Shown one piece after another: positions 2,077 through 32,368 of a DNA stretch of 64,000 nt; the stretch's first letter is position 1, and every line of letters begins with the position of its first letter. The notes beneath the pieces are model-generated. The model was not told the origin of the DNA, did no database searches, and was given only the letters and a program-made list of their open reading frames with translations. Origin of the DNA: a virus; IMG/VR virus record IMGVR_UViG_3300045972_000146, positions 1-64,000 of that record; one strand, written 5' to 3'. Made by a program: the position numbers and the translations under genes.

Positions 2077-5000
2077 TTAATTCCAAGTAAAATTAATTGA
2101 CTTATCTCCAAGATCTTCTAACGACGATGAGCTTCCATAATATTCTTTTGAGAATAATGGCATGTCAAATAATTGCATTTTCTTAGAGTCTTGATTTTTT
2201 TTCTTTACATGCATGTTATGCAGTTGTTGTTTGTATATTAAAACCATCATCATAGCTATAACCCTATCGAAGTTTCCTTTATCATTGTATTGTATTAGTT
2301 CCTCTAACAGAGGTTCTGAAAATATAGTAGTAAGACATTTCTTGCCAGGAGCGAATTCCTCATTAAGATATTCCTTTATAAGCCCTTCTCCGTAGTCTTT
2401 TATGGGGACATTCATGTGAATTCCCTTTCTTCTTTGTACAGTGGACTTCCCTATGATGTCATTAATGATATCTGGCTGGTCGGCTAATAAGTAATCACAA
2501 TGCTTCTGTGTGAAGTATGGAAATATACCTTTTCGTTCATTTTCATATAGAAGTCTAGCATTATAATACATCAAAAGCTTTCTTACGTTCTCATAATAAT
2601 CCTCGGCAGTATCTGGCCTCCCGGTATATTCAGCCACAAGTATATCATAATACTCTTCAAAGTTTTGGAATCTCTTATATATGAATGTAGATCCAAGAGA
2701 GTTTGTTCCAGCCTTATCGTGATCATATGGGTCACATCCTGCGATATATAGTTGATTAGATGTATCCGTATTTGGGTGTTCCCATATAACTATACTTCCC
2801 TCATGTCTATCATCTCTATGTAATGGATAATTAGTTATATCTCCGCCCTTCTTTATTTGCCAGGACAGACTGCCATTTACCCAATTTAGATCTCCAACCT
2901 GCTTATGGTTTTGCAGCTTCTTATTAGTTCTTAGTGCCGCTAACTGCATCATTAATTCCTTCTTTGGAAATATATTGCCAGTAAGTTCTAATACTGCCTC
3001 TTGTGGCGTAATTGGGTTCTCTGCAATATATCTATCAATTGCTCTGGAATCAGATGCTCCATCAATAACTTTTTGTCGTTCTGACATAGCATATTCAGTA
3101 GCCTTCTCTCTTAGACTGTTACCGAATTTATCCATATACATCCTTGCTCCCTTTTCGTTGAGCACAGACATATTCGCATATACAGGAACAAAGAATCCAC
3201 AGTAGTTTCCATCTGCACCTTCATCCCATATATTGGAGAATGATTTTATGTTGTATCCAGACGGCTTATAGAATAATTCCTTTAATCCGTCAAATCTACT
3301 ACCTTCATCGCCTCCAGTACCAAATGCAATCATCAATCCATATGCAACACCATCCTCCTCTACAGAAGGTCTAGCTATTTGCCATGCCTGAAGTATGTCT
3401 TTAAATGATCCAGCTTCTTCCCATAGTATAAGTTTACCACGTTTACCACGAGCTCTATTGGGGTCATTCTTTAGCGTAACGCCGATTATCTCAGACTTAT
3501 ACCCTATCTCAGTTTCATTGCCCAGTTCATCCTTAACCTTAATACCAGACTTTCTATGCATCTTAGTGGTAACAGTTCTCTTTTTGCTCCAAGCAGTATG
3601 TTCATCTATAAAGTCCATTAGATCCCACGCCTTACTTAAAAGACCATCTCTTACAAGGAATTCGGTCTCAGCAGCAATTGCATATGATTTAGAGTTCTCT
3701 ATATGATAGTAGTTTCTAGCAAGCATAGATGCTCCTTTGAATGAGTTGTGGGTTGGAATAAAATCTTTTGTAAGATACATATGATTCTCATTATCTACAC
3801 ATATACATCTTTGTTTTTCCACTCTGTCTAACTTCACTATTTCTGTTATAGCTATTCTGTTTAAATTATTTTTTCTCGACCTTATATTTTTTAATTTTCT
3901 AGGTAGTCTAAATATATTTTTATCAGTAGTTATTGTTATTGCCCAAGAATCTCTAGTATTTGAAAAATTATTATTTCCAAAGTTTACATTGCTTCTTCCA
4001 CTAATCTTATTACTTTTTCTACATCTAATACCAAGACTTCTTGCAATAAATAAAAAATCATCTACTAATCTTTCTGATGTCGATACAAAAGAGCACGAAC
4101 CATTTGAATAAAAACCAGAAGTGGAACTTCCGTCTGTATCCATAAGCCCCTGAATTAAACTAAATCTATCTTCTATAGATGCGTATTTATAGTCATCCGG
4201 AATAAATTTATCGAAAGAATGAACGTTTAGACCATATTCTTTTACAGTTTTTATTAATTCGTTTTTATTGGAATTAGACTTAATTATACACTTAAATTTT
4301 TCATTATTGCATCTCTTTACATCATATTCTGATCCAAGAATTCTTTGCAACTCATCTAAAATAAAATCATCATCGGTATAAAAATATATAGAACTTCTAG
4401 TCAACCCACCATCCCCAATTAATACCCCAAGAATATATGGATTAATTAAAAGTTCGTCCCTACTATCAAATTTTACTGGATTTATTTCTGGCAATTTATA
4501 TCTATAACTAACCTTTCCTAATTTCCCCTGCTTTAATTTTCTTTCAGAATATTCTTTTGTTGTTAATATATGTATCTTATTTTTATAATAAGTGGTCCAT
4601 AAATGATTTTCTCCGCAAGTTACGCTTCTACCGTCTTGGAGCCTAACTTCGTACACGTCTTTTTCTCCTTGCTCTACTATTTCTCCAACCCTAATTGGAG
4701 ATCCATTTGGATTCATAACCCAATCCCCAACACCCAAAGAACCCATTTCCACGTATCCATTAGGAGTTAATACCATCTCAGAATAAGGCTGTTCGTATCC
4801 AGCTCCACGTTTCTTTAGAACTACCATATGCTTACCCTCATCCTCGGCTTCTTGTATAGCAGAAAAGTAGTAATAATCATAGTCATAGAAATCCGGGAAC
4901 TCCCTAGTCTTCTCTCTGCGCTTCTTTATGTCTCCGAATCTATCTTTGTACTCATATTCAACAAGTCTTAATATAGGACAGTAGTTTAAGTAGAAGTAAT

Positions 5001-5190
5001 TATATCCACTTATATAATCTCCATCTGGCGCAGTAAAACCATTAATACATCTCTCTTGCTCGGTGTTCCAATACTCAAAGTATTCTGTTGTTCCTGAGGG
5101 TGCAAAACAGTAAACACCATGCTTCTGAAAGGAGATGCACGGTGTTCTAAATTTGTCGGTATTTAATATTCTTTTATTAAAATTGACCAT
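2077..5190 (-). CDS. terL: Terminase large subunit interrupted by an intein
   Basis: DNA-packaging motor ATPase and nuclease, 1037 residues before splicing and about 687 after. The N-terminal extein ends in the Walker A-like VVLKKRGAGY (residues 123-132) and the C-terminal extein resumes with SFKGASMLARNYY (from 483), so joining them restores a continuous crAss-type KKRGAGYSFKGAS P-loop. Walker B-like LILWEEAGS follows, and acidic residues of the RNase H-like nuclease lie in the C-terminal half (for example AGCDPYDHD). The intein (residues about 133-482) is annotated separately. The gene lies between a 73-residue protein upstream and the portal downstream. Activity requires protein splicing, because the insert sits in the ATP-binding loop. 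Confidence 0.92.
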   Translation of the reverse strand: MVNFNKRILNTDKFRTPCISFQKHGVYCFAPSGTTEYFEYWNTEQERCINGFTAPDGDYISGYNYFYLNYCPILRLVEYEYKDRFGDIKKRREKTREFPDFYDYDYYYFSAIQEAEDEGKHMVVLKKRGAGYEQPYSEMVLTPNGYVEMGSLGVGDWVMNPNGSPIRVGEIVEQGEKDVYEVRLQDGRSVTCGENHLWTTYYKNKIHILTTKEYSERKLKQGKLGKVSYRYKLPEINPVKFDSRDELLINPYILGVLIGDGGLTRSSIYFYTDDDFILDELQRILGSEYDVKRCNNEKFKCIIKSNSNKNELIKTVKEYGLNVHSFDKFIPDDYKYASIEDRFSLIQGLMDTDGSSTSGFYSNGSCSFVSTSERLVDDFLFIARSLGIRCRKSNKISGRSNVNFGNNNFSNTRDSWAITITTDKNIFRLPRKLKNIRSRKNNLNRIAITEIVKLDRVEKQRCICVDNENHMYLTKDFIPTHNSFKGASMLARNYYHIENSKSYAIAAETEFLVRDGLLSKAWDLMDFIDEHTAWSKKRTVTTKMHRKSGIKVKDELGNETEIGYKSEIIGVTLKNDPNRARGKRGKLILWEEAGSFKDILQAWQIARPSVEEDGVAYGLMIAFGTGGDEGSRFDGLKELFYKPSGYNIKSFSNIWDEGADGNYCGFFVPVYANMSVLNEKGARMYMDKFGNSLREKATEYAMSERQKVIDGASDSRAIDRYIAENPITPQEAVLELTGNIFPKKELMMQLAALRTNKKLQNHKQVGDLNWVNGSLSWQIKKGGDITNYPLHRDDRHEGSIVIWEHPNTDTSNQLYIAGCDPYDHDKAGTNSLGSTFIYKRFQNFEEYYDILVAEYTGRPDTAEDYYENVRKLLMYYNARLLYENERKGIFPYFTQKHCDYLLADQPDIINDIIGKSTVQRRKGIHMNVPIKDYGEGLIKEYLNEEFAPGKKCLTTIFSEPLLEELIQYNDKGNFDRVIAMMMVLIYKQQLHNMHVKKKNQDSKKMQLFDMPLFSKEYYGSSSSLEDLGDKSINFTWN
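3745..4794 (-). other. Intein with LAGLIDADG homing endonuclease inside TerL
   Basis: About 350 residues (133-482 of the precursor) interrupt the terminase P-loop. A Hint block A-like segment MVLTPNGYVEMGSLGVGDWV is followed by block B TCGENHLW (His196, Trp198). The C-terminal end is RCICVDN...DFIPTHN with Asn482, and Ser483 is the first extein residue. Between them are two LAGLIDADG motifs, LGVLIGDGG (about 253-262) and LIQGLMDTDG (about 345-354), both with acidic residues kept. No Cys or Ser is at the expected intein start (EQPYSE). A Trp in block B, a Cys in block F and a Thr before His-Asn suggest a class 3 intein, which splices without an N-terminal nucleophile. The exact first residue (Glu133 or Gln134) is inferred from the uninterrupted P-loop. 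Confidence 0.88.
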
Positions 5191-5205
5191 TCAACTGTAT
5201 TGTTA

Positions 5206-5427
5206 TTAGCTTCGTAACCATTTATTAAATTTGGCAATTTGACGTTTTAACCAACCAATTTTCTTTGCAGGAACTGTTTTAATCTCTACGATTGCTTCTA
5301 CCGGAATATTAATTTGCTCTACTACTTGTTTTGGTTTTTTATGATAACGTTTCTTGTTATTTGTTTTCTTTACTTGCGCAACAGCATCAGTACTTACTAC
5401 CGGAGTTACTTTTTTATTGTCTTCCAT
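5206..5427 (-). CDS. Small basic Lys-rich protein
   Basis: A 73-residue protein with a Lys/Asn-rich basic segment in the N-terminal half (KKTNNKKRYHKKPKQ) and a basic C-terminus (KKIGWLKRQIAKFNKWLRS) that could form an amphipathic helix. It ends 15 bases before the TerL start, in the late operon. I do not recognise the family. The composition fits nucleic-acid or membrane contact but does not show a function. Confidence 0.6.
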   Translation of the reverse strand: MEDNKKVTPVVSTDAVAQVKKTNNKKRYHKKPKQVVEQINIPVEAIVEIKTVPAKKIGWLKRQIAKFNKWLRS

Positions 5428-5451
5428 AATCTAATTATTGTGTTTAATCTA

Positions 5452-5649
5452 TTAAACGGTTTTTAATTTCTTTTGTTTACTTTGGTGTTGTTCTGTATAC
5501 AACTCAAGTTTCTCATTAAGTTCTTTTATATTGGAATTAATTATTGACCCGACTACCCATATGTGAGCAATTATTGCCAATGAGAATCCTGTTATAAATA
5601 ATACTATGTTAGTATAATTATCACTACAAATGTATGTCATATTAGTCAC
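5452..5649 (-). CDS. Small single-pass membrane protein
   Basis: A 65-residue protein with one clear transmembrane segment (about residues 14-36, IVLFITGFSLAIIAHIWVV) followed by a charged, probably helical tail rich in Glu, Lys and Gln. Size and place late in the operon, just before terminase, could suit a lysis accessory such as a holin or spanin component. No family is recognised and the lysis role is only a guess. Its start lies four bases from the stop of the upstream resolvase-like gene. Confidence 0.6.
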   Translation of the reverse strand: MTNMTYICSDNYTNIVLFITGFSLAIIAHIWVVGSIINSNIKELNEKLELYTEQHQSKQKKLKTV

Positions 5650-12143: not shown

Positions 12144-12480
12144 AGTTATCGCTCCTATTTAAATAACTGCAATGAAATACAGTTTAATTAACTACCATAC
12201 AACTAAACCCAATGATCCCCTTGAGAACCGGTCCAATCTTCGGTATGGCTTTCAAAACCTTTTATTCTCATATCTGTACGTCAGCTTTCGCCTACACCCA
12301 AACGCTTATCCCAGTCTCCCCTTGTTATCTACACATCTTACGATAGTAGCCCGCGCCATATGTTTTATTAGTCTTTTCTGATACTACCGGAGAAAACTTA
12401 TCACTTAAGTGATTACAATCCGATGTCTAACTCTTCTGCTTTCGCCCTCAGAGTGAATTGATCAGGGTGATCAGTATCAC
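12144..12480 (-). ncRNA. Structured leader RNA of the left late block
   Basis: No gene is seen in these about 340 bases. Read on the minus strand from candidate promoter B, the sequence has hairpin-like segments with GAAA loops (GGGCGAAAGC near 12445; GGCGAAAGCTG near 12285) and the perfect palindrome ATCACTTAAGTGAT (12400-12413). It leads into the Shine-Dalgarno of the first late gene. I read it as a structured 5' leader or a separate RNA. Confidence 0.4.
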
Positions 12481-12513
12481 TAACTATAACGCATATAATA
12501 TAAAAAGGTTGTA
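12481..12513 (-). promoter_or_regulatory. Candidate late promoter B
   Basis: On the minus strand TACAACCTTTTT is followed by ATTATATGCGTTATAG. The first 12 bases are identical to those of promoter A (10306-10317), and the A/T-rich second part is similar in position. It faces the left late block, about 340 bases from its first gene. Confidence 0.5.
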
Positions 12514-12863
12514 CTCGATGTCAGGAAATTACATAAAAAATTGCAAATAATGGCTGAAATGGCAAATTTTTAGTAAAATTTTTTAATGAACGTATCAATG
12601 ACAGCGCGAAAGATAGATAATTTTGATAATAAAAAAAATTTACGAACATGTGCATGACTACGCGAAAGAGTATCATTCTGCCTCCCCCGGGGTCAACTTC
12701 GGATGACAATACCCCGTGCCTTCTGCCTCGCTAGGTCCCAATCAGGACTCCTTCAGGTGTAATTGCGAGTATAAATCTTAGGCTAAGTGCTTATCCTTTA
12801 TCTTTATTTCGGGAACTATCTGTTCTATTTCCAGCCAGACTAATCATTAATCAATAATATAGT
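12514..12863 (+). promoter_or_regulatory. Divergent control region and early leader
   Basis: No convincing gene. The left part (12520-12660) is very A/T rich, a possible early promoter area or origin. A strong hairpin follows at 12688-12716 (CGGGGTCA with TGAC..ACCCCG around ACTTCGGA), then the first copy of a repeated motif (12727-12770). Transcription diverges here, so the early (rightward) promoter must lie in or near this stretch, but I cannot define it. An origin of replication is a possibility based on context only. Confidence 0.4.
12727..12770 (+). repeat. Repeated structured motif, copy 1
   Basis: GCTAGGTCCCAATCAGGACT, then CCTTCAGGTGTAATTGCGAG. CAAT can pair with ATTG and CTCG with CGAG. 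Two more copies at about 13033 and 13541 share the GCTAG, TCA(A/G)G and CCTTTAGATG core while the pairing bases change together. Confidence 0.5.
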
Positions 12864-17525: not shown

Positions 17526-17885
17526 ATGAAAAAGTTCACCAACAAATCGTTTACAGTTCTCATGTATAACATGGTGAGCTGGGTAGTGCAACATAAAACA
17601 ATACCATATAAAATCAATATAGCAATAGAAGATTTGAATGGAACTGATATATATGTTGCGGAAGTGTATTACAAATCAAAACCTGAAGAGGAAATAGTAC
17701 TTGAAGAGTTTCCAACGAAATTCAATGAATATGCATCAATTGATGAGAAAGAAAGGAATCTGAAAAGAATATCCAATCAATATCCAGCAATTGAAGAGCA
17801 TATTGTGACTGATGAAATGGACCCGTTGACTGAGTGTGAGCGTAATTACACTAATCATTTAAAGGGAGTTCATAGTGAAAATTGA
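17526..17885 (+). CDS. Small early protein, 119 aa
   Basis: MKKFTNKSFTVLMYNMVSWV then an acidic domain. Leader AATCAATTGAA. It is the last gene before the first long ORF-free tract. Function not recognised. Confidence 0.6.
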   Translation: MKKFTNKSFTVLMYNMVSWVVQHKTIPYKINIAIEDLNGTDIYVAEVYYKSKPEEEIVLEEFPTKFNEYASIDEKERNLKRISNQYPAIEEHIVTDEMDPLTECERNYTNHLKGVHSEN

Positions 17886-17893
17886 TTAAAATA

Positions 17894-17984
17894 AAAAGCT
17901 TTAATTAGATTGCTGGTCACGGCTGACTTGGTTTGAACAATAGACCAAAGAAAATGTGTTGTCATGGTGATAATTAAAGCTTTT
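17894..17984 (+). ncRNA. Long-stem RNA hairpin
   Basis: AAAAGCTTTAATTA (17894-17907) pairs perfectly over 14 bases with TAATTAAAGCTTTT (17971-17984). Nested inside are TCAC with GTGA, TGAC with GTCA, and TTGGT with ACCAA. This opens the ORF-free tract and could be a 91-base RNA or the terminator of the genes upstream. Confidence 0.55.
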
Positions 17985-19182
17985 GTTAACATGTCATTTC
18001 TGCTTCCAAAGGGCAGACTATATTAAATAAGGTAACAAGTGTAAATAAACTGTAGATATACATAAAAAAGCATGATTAGAATTATTTAATATAGAACATG
18101 GATGGGCAAAAAGGAGGGTTAAATCTGGTACTACATTTCAACCAGAGCCTGTGATAGGTATAGTAAATGCTAAAATACATGTAAGAAATTCTCATGTTAA
18201 TTACCGAACTTGAGTGATATCTATGGAAGTTTGACGCGGCTGACCAACAATGGCAATAAGAGATTGGCTGAGGATTCCTAACGGGCCTAGGCCAAATTCG
18301 ATGTGTAGCGAGCTATGCGGATGGGTATTATAATGGAGGTTGAATGGGTATCTACCCTAAAGATTAACACTATCAAGAGCTAAAGTAGAAATACAATGCG
18401 CCAAATCCTTGACAATTTTCCTTGGCACAAGTGGAAAATAAATGGCTGTCTTTAAACAGAAGTTAAGAGCCACAGTTCATTAGATGACTTAGAATGAACA
18501 AAAGACTATTCGACTAATCAAAAACCTTTCGTAGGGAAATGATAGAATTGAATATCCGCTAACGTCGGACAAGCCCGCAGTTTTGCGAAAGCAATACAAA
18601 AGGACCGTATAAGCCGGATTGTAACTGAGCAATAATTCAGTTGATTGGTTAAGAACCAAATTAAGTTTACCATTGGAACCATTAGAACCCATTCTTGACG
18701 CTGGTAAATGTATTTGTTAAGGCGTAGAGCAAATTGATTGGCTAAGGCTGGCCCATTTTCTAGAGATAGCTTCGGGTGAAACTAGATGCTTGATTAAGAA
18801 TCACAACCTCGCTCAAGGATAATTAGCAAAAATTCCTATTCTAACTATTTTTCGCGAGATAGAAAGAATAGTCCGTGACGTACGAAGAGCGGATACGAAA
18901 CCTCATACAATGCCTCGTATGACGAATCTAAAACAAGAAGGCTAAAAATACAAATGCGAGGAGGGTGTAGTCACATGAGATGGCTCGAGGTAGGAAATGC
19001 CGCAAAGAGAGCGGGTGTAGTATTTGTATGTGAAAAGCAAGCATTGGAATCCAGATGACTGGACCCTTACCGTTAGATGAAACCGTAAGTGGAATATCTA
19101 GACAGCCGGTATAATTAAAATGCATATAACGAGCGAGTAATATCCCCATGGGGACGCCATTCAAATGTTATATGCATTTTTT
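17985..19182 (+). ncRNA. Long noncoding structured RNA candidate I (about 1.2 kb)
   Basis: Nearly 1.2 kb with no plausible gene on either strand and a G/C content above the neighbours. Many hairpins are visible: TTGC-GAAA-GCAA (18583-18594), CTTAC..GTAAG (19066-19089, inner GTT/AAC), and a final 14-pair stem with a T-tract at 19117-19182. A terminator at the 3' end and tRNA-like sequence just after it support a processed, stable RNA. Size, phage context and GNRA loops recall the GOLLD and ROOL classes, but I cannot match a consensus by eye. The 5' end is not defined. Confidence 0.6.
19117..19182 (+). terminator. Strong terminator of long RNA I
   Basis: AAAATGCATATAAC (19117-19130) pairs over 14 bases with GTTATATGCATTTT (19167-19180), and six T residues span 19177-19182. 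An inner CCCCATGGGG palindrome lies in the loop. Confidence 0.65.
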
Positions 19183-19187
19183 AACAC

Positions 19188-19272
19188 GCCAGTATCATAC
19201 AAGATGAGAGCCTTGTAATGACCACGGAAAACTCTACGGAGTCTAAGGAGTTCGAATCTCCTAACTGGCACA
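19188..19272 (+). ncRNA. tRNA-like element without a normal anticodon arm
   Basis: Acceptor GCCAGT (19188-19193) pairs with ACTGGC (19264-19269), followed by ACA. The T-arm is canonical: AGGAG-TTCGAAT-CTCCT. Between them, where D and anticodon arms belong, is TACAAG-ATGAGAGC-CTTGTA, then ACTC-TACG-GAGT. A forced anticodon arm (CCTTG-TAATGAC-CACGG) has a mismatch and no U33. Either a degenerate type II tRNA or a tRNA mimic (acceptor/T-arm minihelix), six bases after the terminator of long RNA I. Confidence 0.5.
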
Positions 19273-19335: not shown

Positions 19336-19602
19336 ATGAGTAAAGTAACAGTATTTGTATCATTATTGATGAGTATGAACTTTGCAGCAAATGCAAAAGT
19401 ATCAAAGTCATTGAAACGTATTGAAAAAGGTGAAAAAATTGATGATGCTATTCTTGCAGCTGAAGCTAAAACTTCAAAAGCATACAAAGAAGATGCAGCA
19501 TTTGCAGCCAAAGTGGATGCTATTATTGCCGGTAAGGTTGAAAAACCAAAAGCAGAACCAGCAAAAACAACTACAAATCGCAGTGGAGAGCCACGCCGAT
19601 AA
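19336..19602 (+). CDS. Small Ala/Lys-rich early protein, 88 aa
   Basis: Begins MSKVTVFVSLLMSMNFAANA, a signal-like N-terminus with an AxA-type site, then an Ala/Lys/Glu-rich helix and a basic tail (TTTNRSGEPRR). If the signal is used, the mature helix is periplasmic. Leader TTATCAAAATT. Followed directly by a strong terminator, so it is likely its own transcript. Unknown role. Confidence 0.6.
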   Translation: MSKVTVFVSLLMSMNFAANAKVSKSLKRIEKGEKIDDAILAAEAKTSKAYKEDAAFAAKVDAIIAGKVEKPKAEPAKTTTNRSGEPRR

Positions 19603-21345: not shown

Positions 21346-21419
21346 AGTTTATTAGCTCAGTTGGTTAGAGCGTCTGATTGTGGTTCAGAAGGTCGCGGGT
21401 TCGAGCCCCACATAAACTA
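21346..21419 (+). tRNA. tRNA-His (GTG)
   Basis: Acceptor AGTTTAT / ATAAACT (21346-21352, 21412-21418), D-stem GCTC/GAGC, anticodon arm TCTGA-TTGTGGT-TCAGA with anticodon GTG, and T-arm GCGGG-TTCGAGC-CCCAC with one mismatch. CCA is not encoded in full (ACA follows). The overlapping long ORF frame here is not used; the next gene starts at 21457. Confidence 0.9.
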
Positions 21420-29939: not shown

Positions 29940-29944
29940 TATCC

Positions 29945-31860
29945 AAAACCATTTCAGAGTTTATCAACATGTAAAACAATTAACGTCTAAGTTAGGACCT
30001 ATTAATATGCACACACAGGCAGTGTGGTGTTAGGGATAAACTTGCCTATTAGACAATAGTATGCGCTATTAAAAAAGCAAGTCCCATGTGATGGAATTTA
30101 AAGTCACTACAAAAAAGAGTGCGGGGTTGAACTCCTAGCAACAGCCTATGCATTGTAGGAGGGTCTTTAACTGCGTTTGTAACGTACATAGTTAGAGTAG
30201 GTATAACGGCGACCAAACAAGACACGTTATTAAAAATGGTACAGCTTTGGAACTGTATCGACTGTTGAACAAGGGTAACTGCACGAACAAAACCACTTAC
30301 AGGTAACTCTGTATAATAGTACTGCGTAGGTTATCGATCAATTAATTATTAATAATATAAACCGGCTAGAAATGCGCGGGGTGGAAATCCAATAATTAAT
30401 TCAAGCTATAGATTACACTTTGAGGGTTAAAGACCCTATGGCCCATGGACCAGTGAAATAGCGACCTGTCAAGTTATTAAGTTTGAGACAGATAAAAAAT
30501 ACACAAACTAGCCTTACTAATTCACTGGCTACAATAAAGTGGAGAATTAGCCCTAGTATGCTTTCAAGGTTAATCGAAAGTGGGAGGTGCATGTGCTGGT
30601 ACGCATGACAAGAGCTTCAAGGCGAAAGCCGAAAACCGGGCACGCACGGTATAATGCAAACCGAAACCTAATTTACGCTGTTTCATAATTTTCAGCCGTA
30701 TTGAAAAAGATTAATCCCCTGGGGTAGGGGCGAAGTTTATCCTGCCAGACAAAAAGAACGCCACGTCTTTAGTCAAATTTCACGAACGTATGGGAAAGCC
30801 GTTCACCCAAATTGCATATTAGTAGGCTCTTCCCTGTCTCGGAAATAGCCGAAGGAAGTCGAAGACTATTCAATCCGTGCGACAGAAGCTCCTGTATACA
30901 ACTAGTGGAAGGGTCAAACACTTAAAAACCATATTTAAGGTGGTCGAAAGCTATCACATTTCTAAGCGACTAAAAAGCATAGAAAGATCGATAATTAGTA
31001 CACTCCCTATCTGAAGTCTAGAACCCTGGGAGCATTCTACCCAGATAAAGGTCAAAAGCAAGCCGGGAACTTCATGCTGTAACAGGACGGAGCCACCGTC
31101 AGATGTAGCGGAGACGGTACATTCTTGCCTGGACGATAGACGTAGTCACTAGATAGGATAAAATGCGTTATTTTTCTCAGACAATTTCAAGACTGCGCGG
31201 ACTTCAAGGGCCGCTACAATATAGATCTTCAGAACACCGTTTATAAACCGTTGGCCTCATTTGCCAATATGAATCGACAAGGAATTGATACAAGGGTCGC
31301 AGCAAAACAACCATAGTTCTTTATTGCTTTCTTCAACAAGTAAAGTATGCCTTAAATACATTGATATTATTATATAATTATCTATCGCGTGTCAATACGT
31401 AGATAAACCTTTCAAGCCTAGCACTTGGGGATGGAGTATGAGCCTAATTAATATAATGTAATTGTTCGAGAGACCGAAAATTGCTACAAATATCATAATT
31501 TATAAAACCCATTTTAAGCCGTTCTAAGGCATTATAAGTCAGCGTTGATACGAAAGTACTATTGTGAAAAGATAGTGGCATAGCGGAGCTGTAAATGCGT
31601 ATAAAGGGCACAATTCCTAACTAATAGTTGCAGTGGGCGCAAAACCCATAGGTTAATCGTAAATTAGCTACTTTCAAACCACAATCCCAACCCCTCTTCT
31701 AGTACCTAGCGGAAAAAAGAGCAGCGAGTGCGATCGCGGGATTATTTTCAAATTTTATCCGAAGAATTCTCATAAATGTTAAATTGGACAGTTAAACGGG
31801 CTACGGCAGAACATTCCAATCAAGTAGGAACTTTCAGTGATTATCAAAAACAACATTATT
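29945..31860 (+). ncRNA. Long noncoding structured RNA candidate II (about 1.9 kb)
   Basis: Longest ORF-free tract in the window; no frame on either strand is convincing. Stems include GGTACAG/CTGTATC (30238-30259), GGC-GAAA-GCC (30621-30630), GAACG/CGTTC (30784-30804), GACGG/CCGTC (31086-31100, with a competing GACGG at 31113-31117) and GCGG/CCGC (31197-31214). I compared it with rRNA landmarks and found none of the universal sequences. The flanking genes have strong SD sites. It may be one giant RNA or several adjacent ones; ends are not defined. Confidence 0.6.
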
Positions 31861-31885
31861 TATCAAAAATAGGAGGAAACAAACA

Positions 31886-32368
31886 GTGAAAAATTCAAAA
31901 GAAGAAGCCCTACGGCTTTTCGGAGCGACCCTAGGAGGTCATATCCACTCAATCAAAGTTATACCAATGGATAAAGACGCAAAATCGAAAGATGATGCAT
32001 TCCAGGTAAAAGTACCATTCCAATCATACGTAGTTGATCACGTAAAAGTGAACACAGTAGCACACAAACAGGTGTCAGGTGGTATCGATATCGTCCTTAT
32101 CAACGGTGGCGAAAAAGAAATTAAAATCGGTTTAAACGAGCCATTGATTAACAATGCTTCGGAAATCGTTAACGGGTCCGACGTTATTGAAAAACGGACA
32201 TTTTTTGGTGACGCAACAACACCGGCCGAAATCGTAAAAGCAATGAATTTATCAGAAGTGGCACGCATTGATACGATTATGGAAGAACTTGCCGCAACAC
32301 GGGAAGCTCTTATCGGTATCGTTGAAGCAACCGACCGTGCTGCAAAATCTTACGACGGCTTAGATTAA
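31886..32368 (+). CDS. Early protein, 160 aa, GTG start with strong SD
   Basis: AGGAGG lies nine bases before GTG. Begins MKNSKEEALRLFGATLGGHI and contains QVKVPFQSYVVDHVKVNTV and GGIDIVLINGGEKEIKIGL, a beta-rich core, with a helical end. No family recognised. Codon use is more even than in the surrounding A/T-rich genes. Paired with the next gene, 28 bases away, also with a strong SD. Confidence 0.7.
   Translation: MKNSKEEALRLFGATLGGHIHSIKVIPMDKDAKSKDDAFQVKVPFQSYVVDHVKVNTVAHKQVSGGIDIVLINGGEKEIKIGLNEPLINNASEIVNGSDVIEKRTFFGDATTPAEIVKAMNLSEVARIDTIMEELAATREALIGIVEATDRAAKSYDGLD

Follow-up and report, generated by a model that had tools for sequence, protein, structure and literature searches.

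A candidate family of giant structured RNAs in crAss-like phages, with a nearby tRNA-like RNA

To our knowledge, few giant ornate RNAs have been described, and their function is unsolved. Two of these, GOLLD and ROOL, have recently been observed, reportedly, to form RNA cages. The crAss-like phages constitute an order that includes the most abundant phages of the human gut. GOLLD is reported as a homo-multimer with half-shells joined by self-interacting kissing loops; one part of it is conserved and another variable (PMC12286853).

The window, the 64 kb stretch of DNA analyzed here, is the start of an IMG/VR virus record 93.9 kb long. Based on its terminase, the virus belongs to the Crassvirales; the closest named relatives were Suoliviridae, with approximately 56-61% identity over the aligned parts. 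The terminase gene (2077-5190, - strand) encodes 1037 amino acids. This is about one third more than the part aligned by its named relatives, as would be the case with an insert, for instance an intein; a Hint domain is annotated in the relative cr60_1. The element under study lies between a gene that stops at 17885 and another that begins at 19336. The interval 17886-19186 is gene-free, its longest open frame being 78 amino acids versus a mean of 76 in shuffles of the same composition, so the initial annotation was correct in describing the tract as ORF-free. As for GOLLD, the location is phage-borne and near tRNAs: besides the Crassvirales terminase, tRNA genes occur in the window at 21346 and 25950, and in one homologue, L126, a tRNA-Ile gene (939-1013) starts one base past the last recognised 3' module of the giant RNA.

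Two other ORF-free tracts were observed in the window. The first, of 0.7 kb (12150-12860, - strand), lies 7 kb upstream of the terminase gene, has no Rfam match and is conserved in at least seven other crAss-like contigs (L004, L012, L013, L002, L080, L055 and L009), with blocks such as GUUAGACAUCGGAUU...UUUUCUCCGGUAGUAUCAAA and GGGUGUAGGCGAAAGCUGACGUACAG; it is probably a second conserved RNA. For the second, of 1.95 kb (29940-31886, + strand), Rfam gave no match, and similarity to relatives is limited to weak, short matches.

Comparison with described families was made using covariance models. A scan of the element against Rfam 15 returned no family at E ≤ 5, the group I and group II intron models included. 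Similarly, the GOLLD and ROOL models found nothing credible in the seven records carrying the element. The GOLLD model (RF02032) yielded a single match of 5.5 bits (E 1.8) versus a cut-off of 150 bits, and the control genomes gave none above that cut-off. The ROOL model (RF03087) gave no match, and its controls were silent too, so the sensitivity of the search is unproven. The initial annotation had proposed a diverged member of GOLLD or ROOL or else a new class. Of these, the new class is favoured over the membership, with the reservation that the controls supplied no positive match by which to judge sensitivity. The element appears to represent a new family of giant ornate phage RNA, which we place under no named family and for which we imply no relation to GOLLD or ROOL. 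Among the open-access journal articles searched, we found no description of a giant RNA in crAss-like phages.

Homologues were sought first in terminase-linked IMG/VR records and second by short conserved strings. Six further distinct homologues were obtained, all in IMG/VR crAss-like contigs, with E values down to 1e-48. The comparison set thus comprised seven distinct sequences including the window, two of them truncated:

L125: homologue, identical to L123 and L124
L126: homologue, 5' end cut
L128: homologue, 3' end cut
L129: homologue, 99.9% identical to L127
L035: homologue
L036: homologue, 99.9% identical to L037

The initial annotation had allowed that homologues might instead encode a conserved protein. 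They sit in ORF-free tracts of approximately 0.7-1.7 kb, some cut by contig ends, the exception being L125, in which a small gene is inserted. Specifically, the T stem of the giant RNA in L125 is interrupted by about 0.4 kb (approximately 4424-4870) that contains a small cysteine-rich open frame and resembles an insertion. The family is, as judged from these contigs, found in a group of crAss-like phages. Other routes returned nothing further: the 416-amino acid protein encoded downstream led to no relatives, the terminase route having succeeded, and blastn searches with the element and with four homologues found no homologue among 50,697 phage records. One match of L036 (E 0.06) was discarded, as it covered only the last 60 query bases and fell inside an annotated gene. 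Candidates L130-L135 and L136-L146 were dropped because each had a single short pattern and those inspected were coding or had no further similarity. Models of modules C and D (defined below) detected nothing credible in 12 named Crassvirales genomes or in 70 other pattern-matched loci. Among GTDB genomes, module C had no match, and the module D string had three isolated matches in unrelated hosts.

The recognisable features of the window are as follows, the 5' and 3' ends of the giant RNA being placed by the outermost conserved stems:

17894..17984, + strand: module A, closed by an exact 14-pair stem (17894-17907/17971-17984), with an inner hairpin at 17928-17948
17990..18105, + strand: module B, with a CAUGU/ACAUG stem, hairpin CUGC-UUCCAAAGG-GCAG (18000-18016), an A/T-rich stem and conserved ACAUGGAUGG
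18196..18368, + strand: module C, with closing stem GUUAAU/AUUAAC (GUAGU/ACUAC in L035) and a long G-U-rich stem
18475..18569, + strand: module D, with hairpin GUUCAU/AUGAAC, a nested stem (18507-18553) and hairpin UCCG...CGGA; four homologues
18643..18657, + strand: first copy of the repeated hairpin GAUU-RGUUAAGAAYY, of which each homologue has one to three copies
18663..18751, + strand: module E, a block common to L128 with 85% identity over 86 nt
18736..18753, + strand: longer variant of the repeated hairpin, GAUU-GGCUAAGGCUGGCC; the L126 counterpart is GAUU-GGUUAAGACUGACC
18836..18893, + strand: module G, with outer stem CUAUUC/GAAUAG and hairpin UCCG/CGGA (18872-18893)
19070..19109, + strand: conserved motif CCGUUA...GACAGCCGG, recognised by inspection in L125, L129, L126 and L036 and, in varied form, in L035
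19117..19182, + strand: module T, the 3' terminal stem around conserved AGCGAG-AAUAU-CCCCAUGGGG-ACGCC, followed by U6
19188..19271, + strand: tRNA-like RNA, with an acceptor stem, one long hairpin with loop AUGANAGC and a T-arm with UUCGAAU

The recognisable modules occurred in a single order in all homologues: A, B, C, D, the repeated hairpins, G, the CCGUUA motif and T. Modules A and B are missing from L125, L036 consists of the 3' half only (B, C and D are absent), and module B is doubled in L129.

The helices covary, as expected of a structured non-coding RNA. In the full set of hand-aligned helices, pairing is retained in 282 of 283 cells, and 33 pairs have changed on both sides, versus a mean of 13.9 in 5,000 shuffles, none of which reached 33. 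Hand-picked helices favour pairing, and more weight is carried by an automatic test, in which consensus folding was compared with column-shuffled alignments and a coding control. The z scores were -5.6 for module A, -4.3 for B, -3.1 for C, -8.1 for D (whole module), -3.1 for F, -4.0 for G and -13.8 for T, versus -0.4 for the coding control; module E, at -0.3, is too conserved for a folding test. By comparison, a nearby coding gene had a stronger single-sequence folding energy (z = -5.8) than the element (z = -2.6), and plain hairpin richness or single-sequence energy does not separate the element from coding DNA. For module C, the consensus-fold z was -3.1 on the + strand versus -0.1 on the opposite strand. 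Because this score and the G-U pairs of module C favour the + strand, the RNA was assigned to it.

Individual modules illustrate these changes. The outer stem of module A, exact as initially annotated, is AGCUUUAAUUA/UAAUUAAAGCU in the window versus GGUGUUAGUUA/UAACUAACACC in L128, with the intervening sequence almost unchanged; both sides differ in 6 of 16 tested pairs and all 32 cells pair. The hairpin stem of module B reads CUGC/GCAG, UUGC/GCAA, AUGC/GCAU, CUAC/GUAG or UAGC/GCUG among its five copies. Module C, whose five homologues were found by model R1 at E 1e-30 to 1e-37, has a conserved internal loop, CUAUGGAAGUUUGACGC...GCGGAUGG, and is more conserved than the others: 95.5% of its cells are paired, its variation is mostly G-U exchange, and its shuffle test alone is weak. 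In module D (18505-18569), every cell pairs (60/60), with both sides changed in 4 of 15 pairs. The closing pair of the repeated hairpin switches between G-C and A-U among copies, and the module G hairpin stem UCCG/CGGA becomes CCAG/CUGG in L035.

The second stem initially annotated as having 14 pairs, 19117-19180, is likewise exact, with 14-15 pairs. In module T, both sides have changed in 11 of 22 pairs, and much of the stem is replaced compensatorily in L036 and L129. The stem had been called a terminator. The T-tract is indeed present in the window (19177-19182); a conserved terminator role is doubtful, as the homologous stem of L036 has no T-tract. We dropped the reading as a plain intrinsic terminator since the U-tract is not conserved. 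Rather than solely a terminator, the 3' stem is a conserved RNA domain that has an inner motif of its own.

In short, the element is non-coding, has homologues, keeps its module order and contains covarying helices in independent modules. The homologues and covariation support the original reading of a giant structured phage RNA. We are highly confident that 17894-19182 belongs to a new structured RNA family. The element is predicted to encode a + strand non-coding RNA of approximately 1.3 kb, in which six or more folded modules follow one another in a fixed order.

The tRNA-like acceptor stem and T-arm noted initially were substantiated, at 19188-19271, by homologues in L125, L126, L129, L035 and L036. 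In the six sequences, all 90 helix cells pair and both sides have changed in 10 of 15 pairs, which no shuffle equalled; the loop AUGANAGC is conserved. The acceptor stem and the T-arm, with a T-loop of the form UUCRANY, pair in all six. There is no anticodon arm: the stretch separating the hairpin from the T-arm is too short to form one in L035 and L129, so the RNA cannot decode. Neither ARAGORN nor Rfam called it as a tRNA or tmRNA. It was present in every relative for which downstream sequence was available, starting 5-6 nt past the giant RNA in L125, as in the window, and 0.35 to 2.2 kb from it in L126, L129, L035 and L036. Other genes intervene in L035 and L036, where the distance downstream is about 2.2 kb. 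Because of these distances in four relatives, the tRNA-like element is its own gene and not part of the giant RNA. The RNA would most likely be a tRNA mimic, serving either as a cutting signal for RNase P and RNase Z or as a decoy.

Unannotated intergenic tRNA-like sequences were also observed in two named gut Suoliviridae (NC_055891.1, 2300-2360, - strand; NC_055898.1, 60689-60751, + strand). These fold into an acceptor stem, a D-like hairpin and a T-arm without a proper anticodon arm, and such mini-tRNA-like RNAs may be widespread among crAss-like phages. Weak matches of model R2 in named genomes were set aside, being partly ordinary tRNAs. Separately, L035 contains an HNH endonuclease gene (4867-5541) between a complete tRNA-Glu and the 3' end of a second tRNA-Glu, as if inserted into a tRNA gene.

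The self-complementary hexamer in the hairpin loop of module G (18879-18884) is CGUACG in four sequences; in L129, it is CUGCAG, also self-complementary, so that the palindrome has persisted although two of its base pairs changed. With the outer C and G fixed, it would be kept by chance about 1 time in 16, and a second CUGCAG in L129 could pair intramolecularly. For these reasons, the loop is a hint, not proof, of self-association. A sarcin-ricin-like reading of this loop was rejected, as L129 retains the palindrome without that motif.

Our tentative preference among mechanisms, though we hold it at less than even confidence, is that the giant RNA self-associates into an RNA-only oligomer; it is favoured because GOLLD is reported with self-interacting kissing loops (PMC12286853). 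The giant RNA would be made in one transcript with neighbouring genes, which would end at the terminal stem or be cut after it. It would act as a large RNA scaffold, copies of which may join via loop-loop contacts, including the module G hexamer, into an RNA particle during infection, as for GOLLD and ROOL. Against such a particle is the gain and loss of modules among relatives, a variability perhaps incompatible with obligate symmetry. We regard as an even call the combined statement of a new crAss-like giant RNA, self-binding into a particle, beside a non-decoding tRNA mimic. The bolder version, an independently evolved, protein-free homo-oligomeric RNA particle with a subunit larger than that of GOLLD, restricted to crAss-like phages and acting with an anticodon-less tRNA mimic, seems unlikely.

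The RNA could instead be a monomeric scaffold or sponge whose repeated hairpins bind ribosomes or proteins of the phage or host, without multimers forming. The one to three copies of GAUU-RGUUAAGAAYY per RNA, and hairpin-like motifs recurring across modules, do resemble multiple binding sites; however, no RNA-binding protein was recognised among the scanned proteins encoded near the element, and the self-complementary loop is left unexplained, making this a possible but rather unlikely reading. It is quite improbable that the modules are separate small structured RNAs, arranged in a row and released by cleavage of an operon transcript. Although single modules come and go (A and B in L125; B, C and D in L036; B twice in L129) and the T stem of L125 holds about 0.4 kb with a small gene, the order is constant in all homologues, only L125 has an inter-module gene, and GOLLD likewise has conserved and variable parts (PMC12286853). 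A highly diverged GOLLD or ROOL would account for the size, the phage location and the nearby tRNAs, and is very improbable given no Rfam match at E ≤ 5 and the silence of both models in seven records. Finally, an element acting at the DNA level (an origin or a site for packaging) or a decayed gene, consistent with A/T-rich inverted repeats and no ORF, can hardly explain compensatory changes in many short helices or G-U pairing favouring one strand, and decayed genes do not covary.

If the preferred reading of a new giant RNA is true, a third unrelated phage family of approximately 1.3 kb would suggest that phages evolve giant RNAs repeatedly, and would provide an independent system for asking what giant RNAs do. 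The linked tRNA-like RNA without an anticodon arm raises a second question, directly testable.

With respect to known systems, the tRNA-like domain of tmRNA and the tRNA-like structures of plant viruses have an acceptor stem and T-arm without a normal anticodon arm, as does the small element, which differs in having no long internal insert and in being called neither tRNA nor tmRNA by Rfam or ARAGORN. OLE and HEARO RNAs and group I and II introns are also large structured RNAs; they differ in that the element has no Rfam match and no intron ORF. ROOL (RF03087) is, like the element, a large ornate phage RNA, and occurs near tRNA islands, whereas the element does not match it and is about twice its length. 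GOLLD differs in its motifs, in the absence of a sequence or covariance match and in size, its members often exceeding 0.8 kb versus approximately 1.3 kb for the element. Both are nevertheless giant phage RNAs located near tRNAs, with more and less conserved parts.
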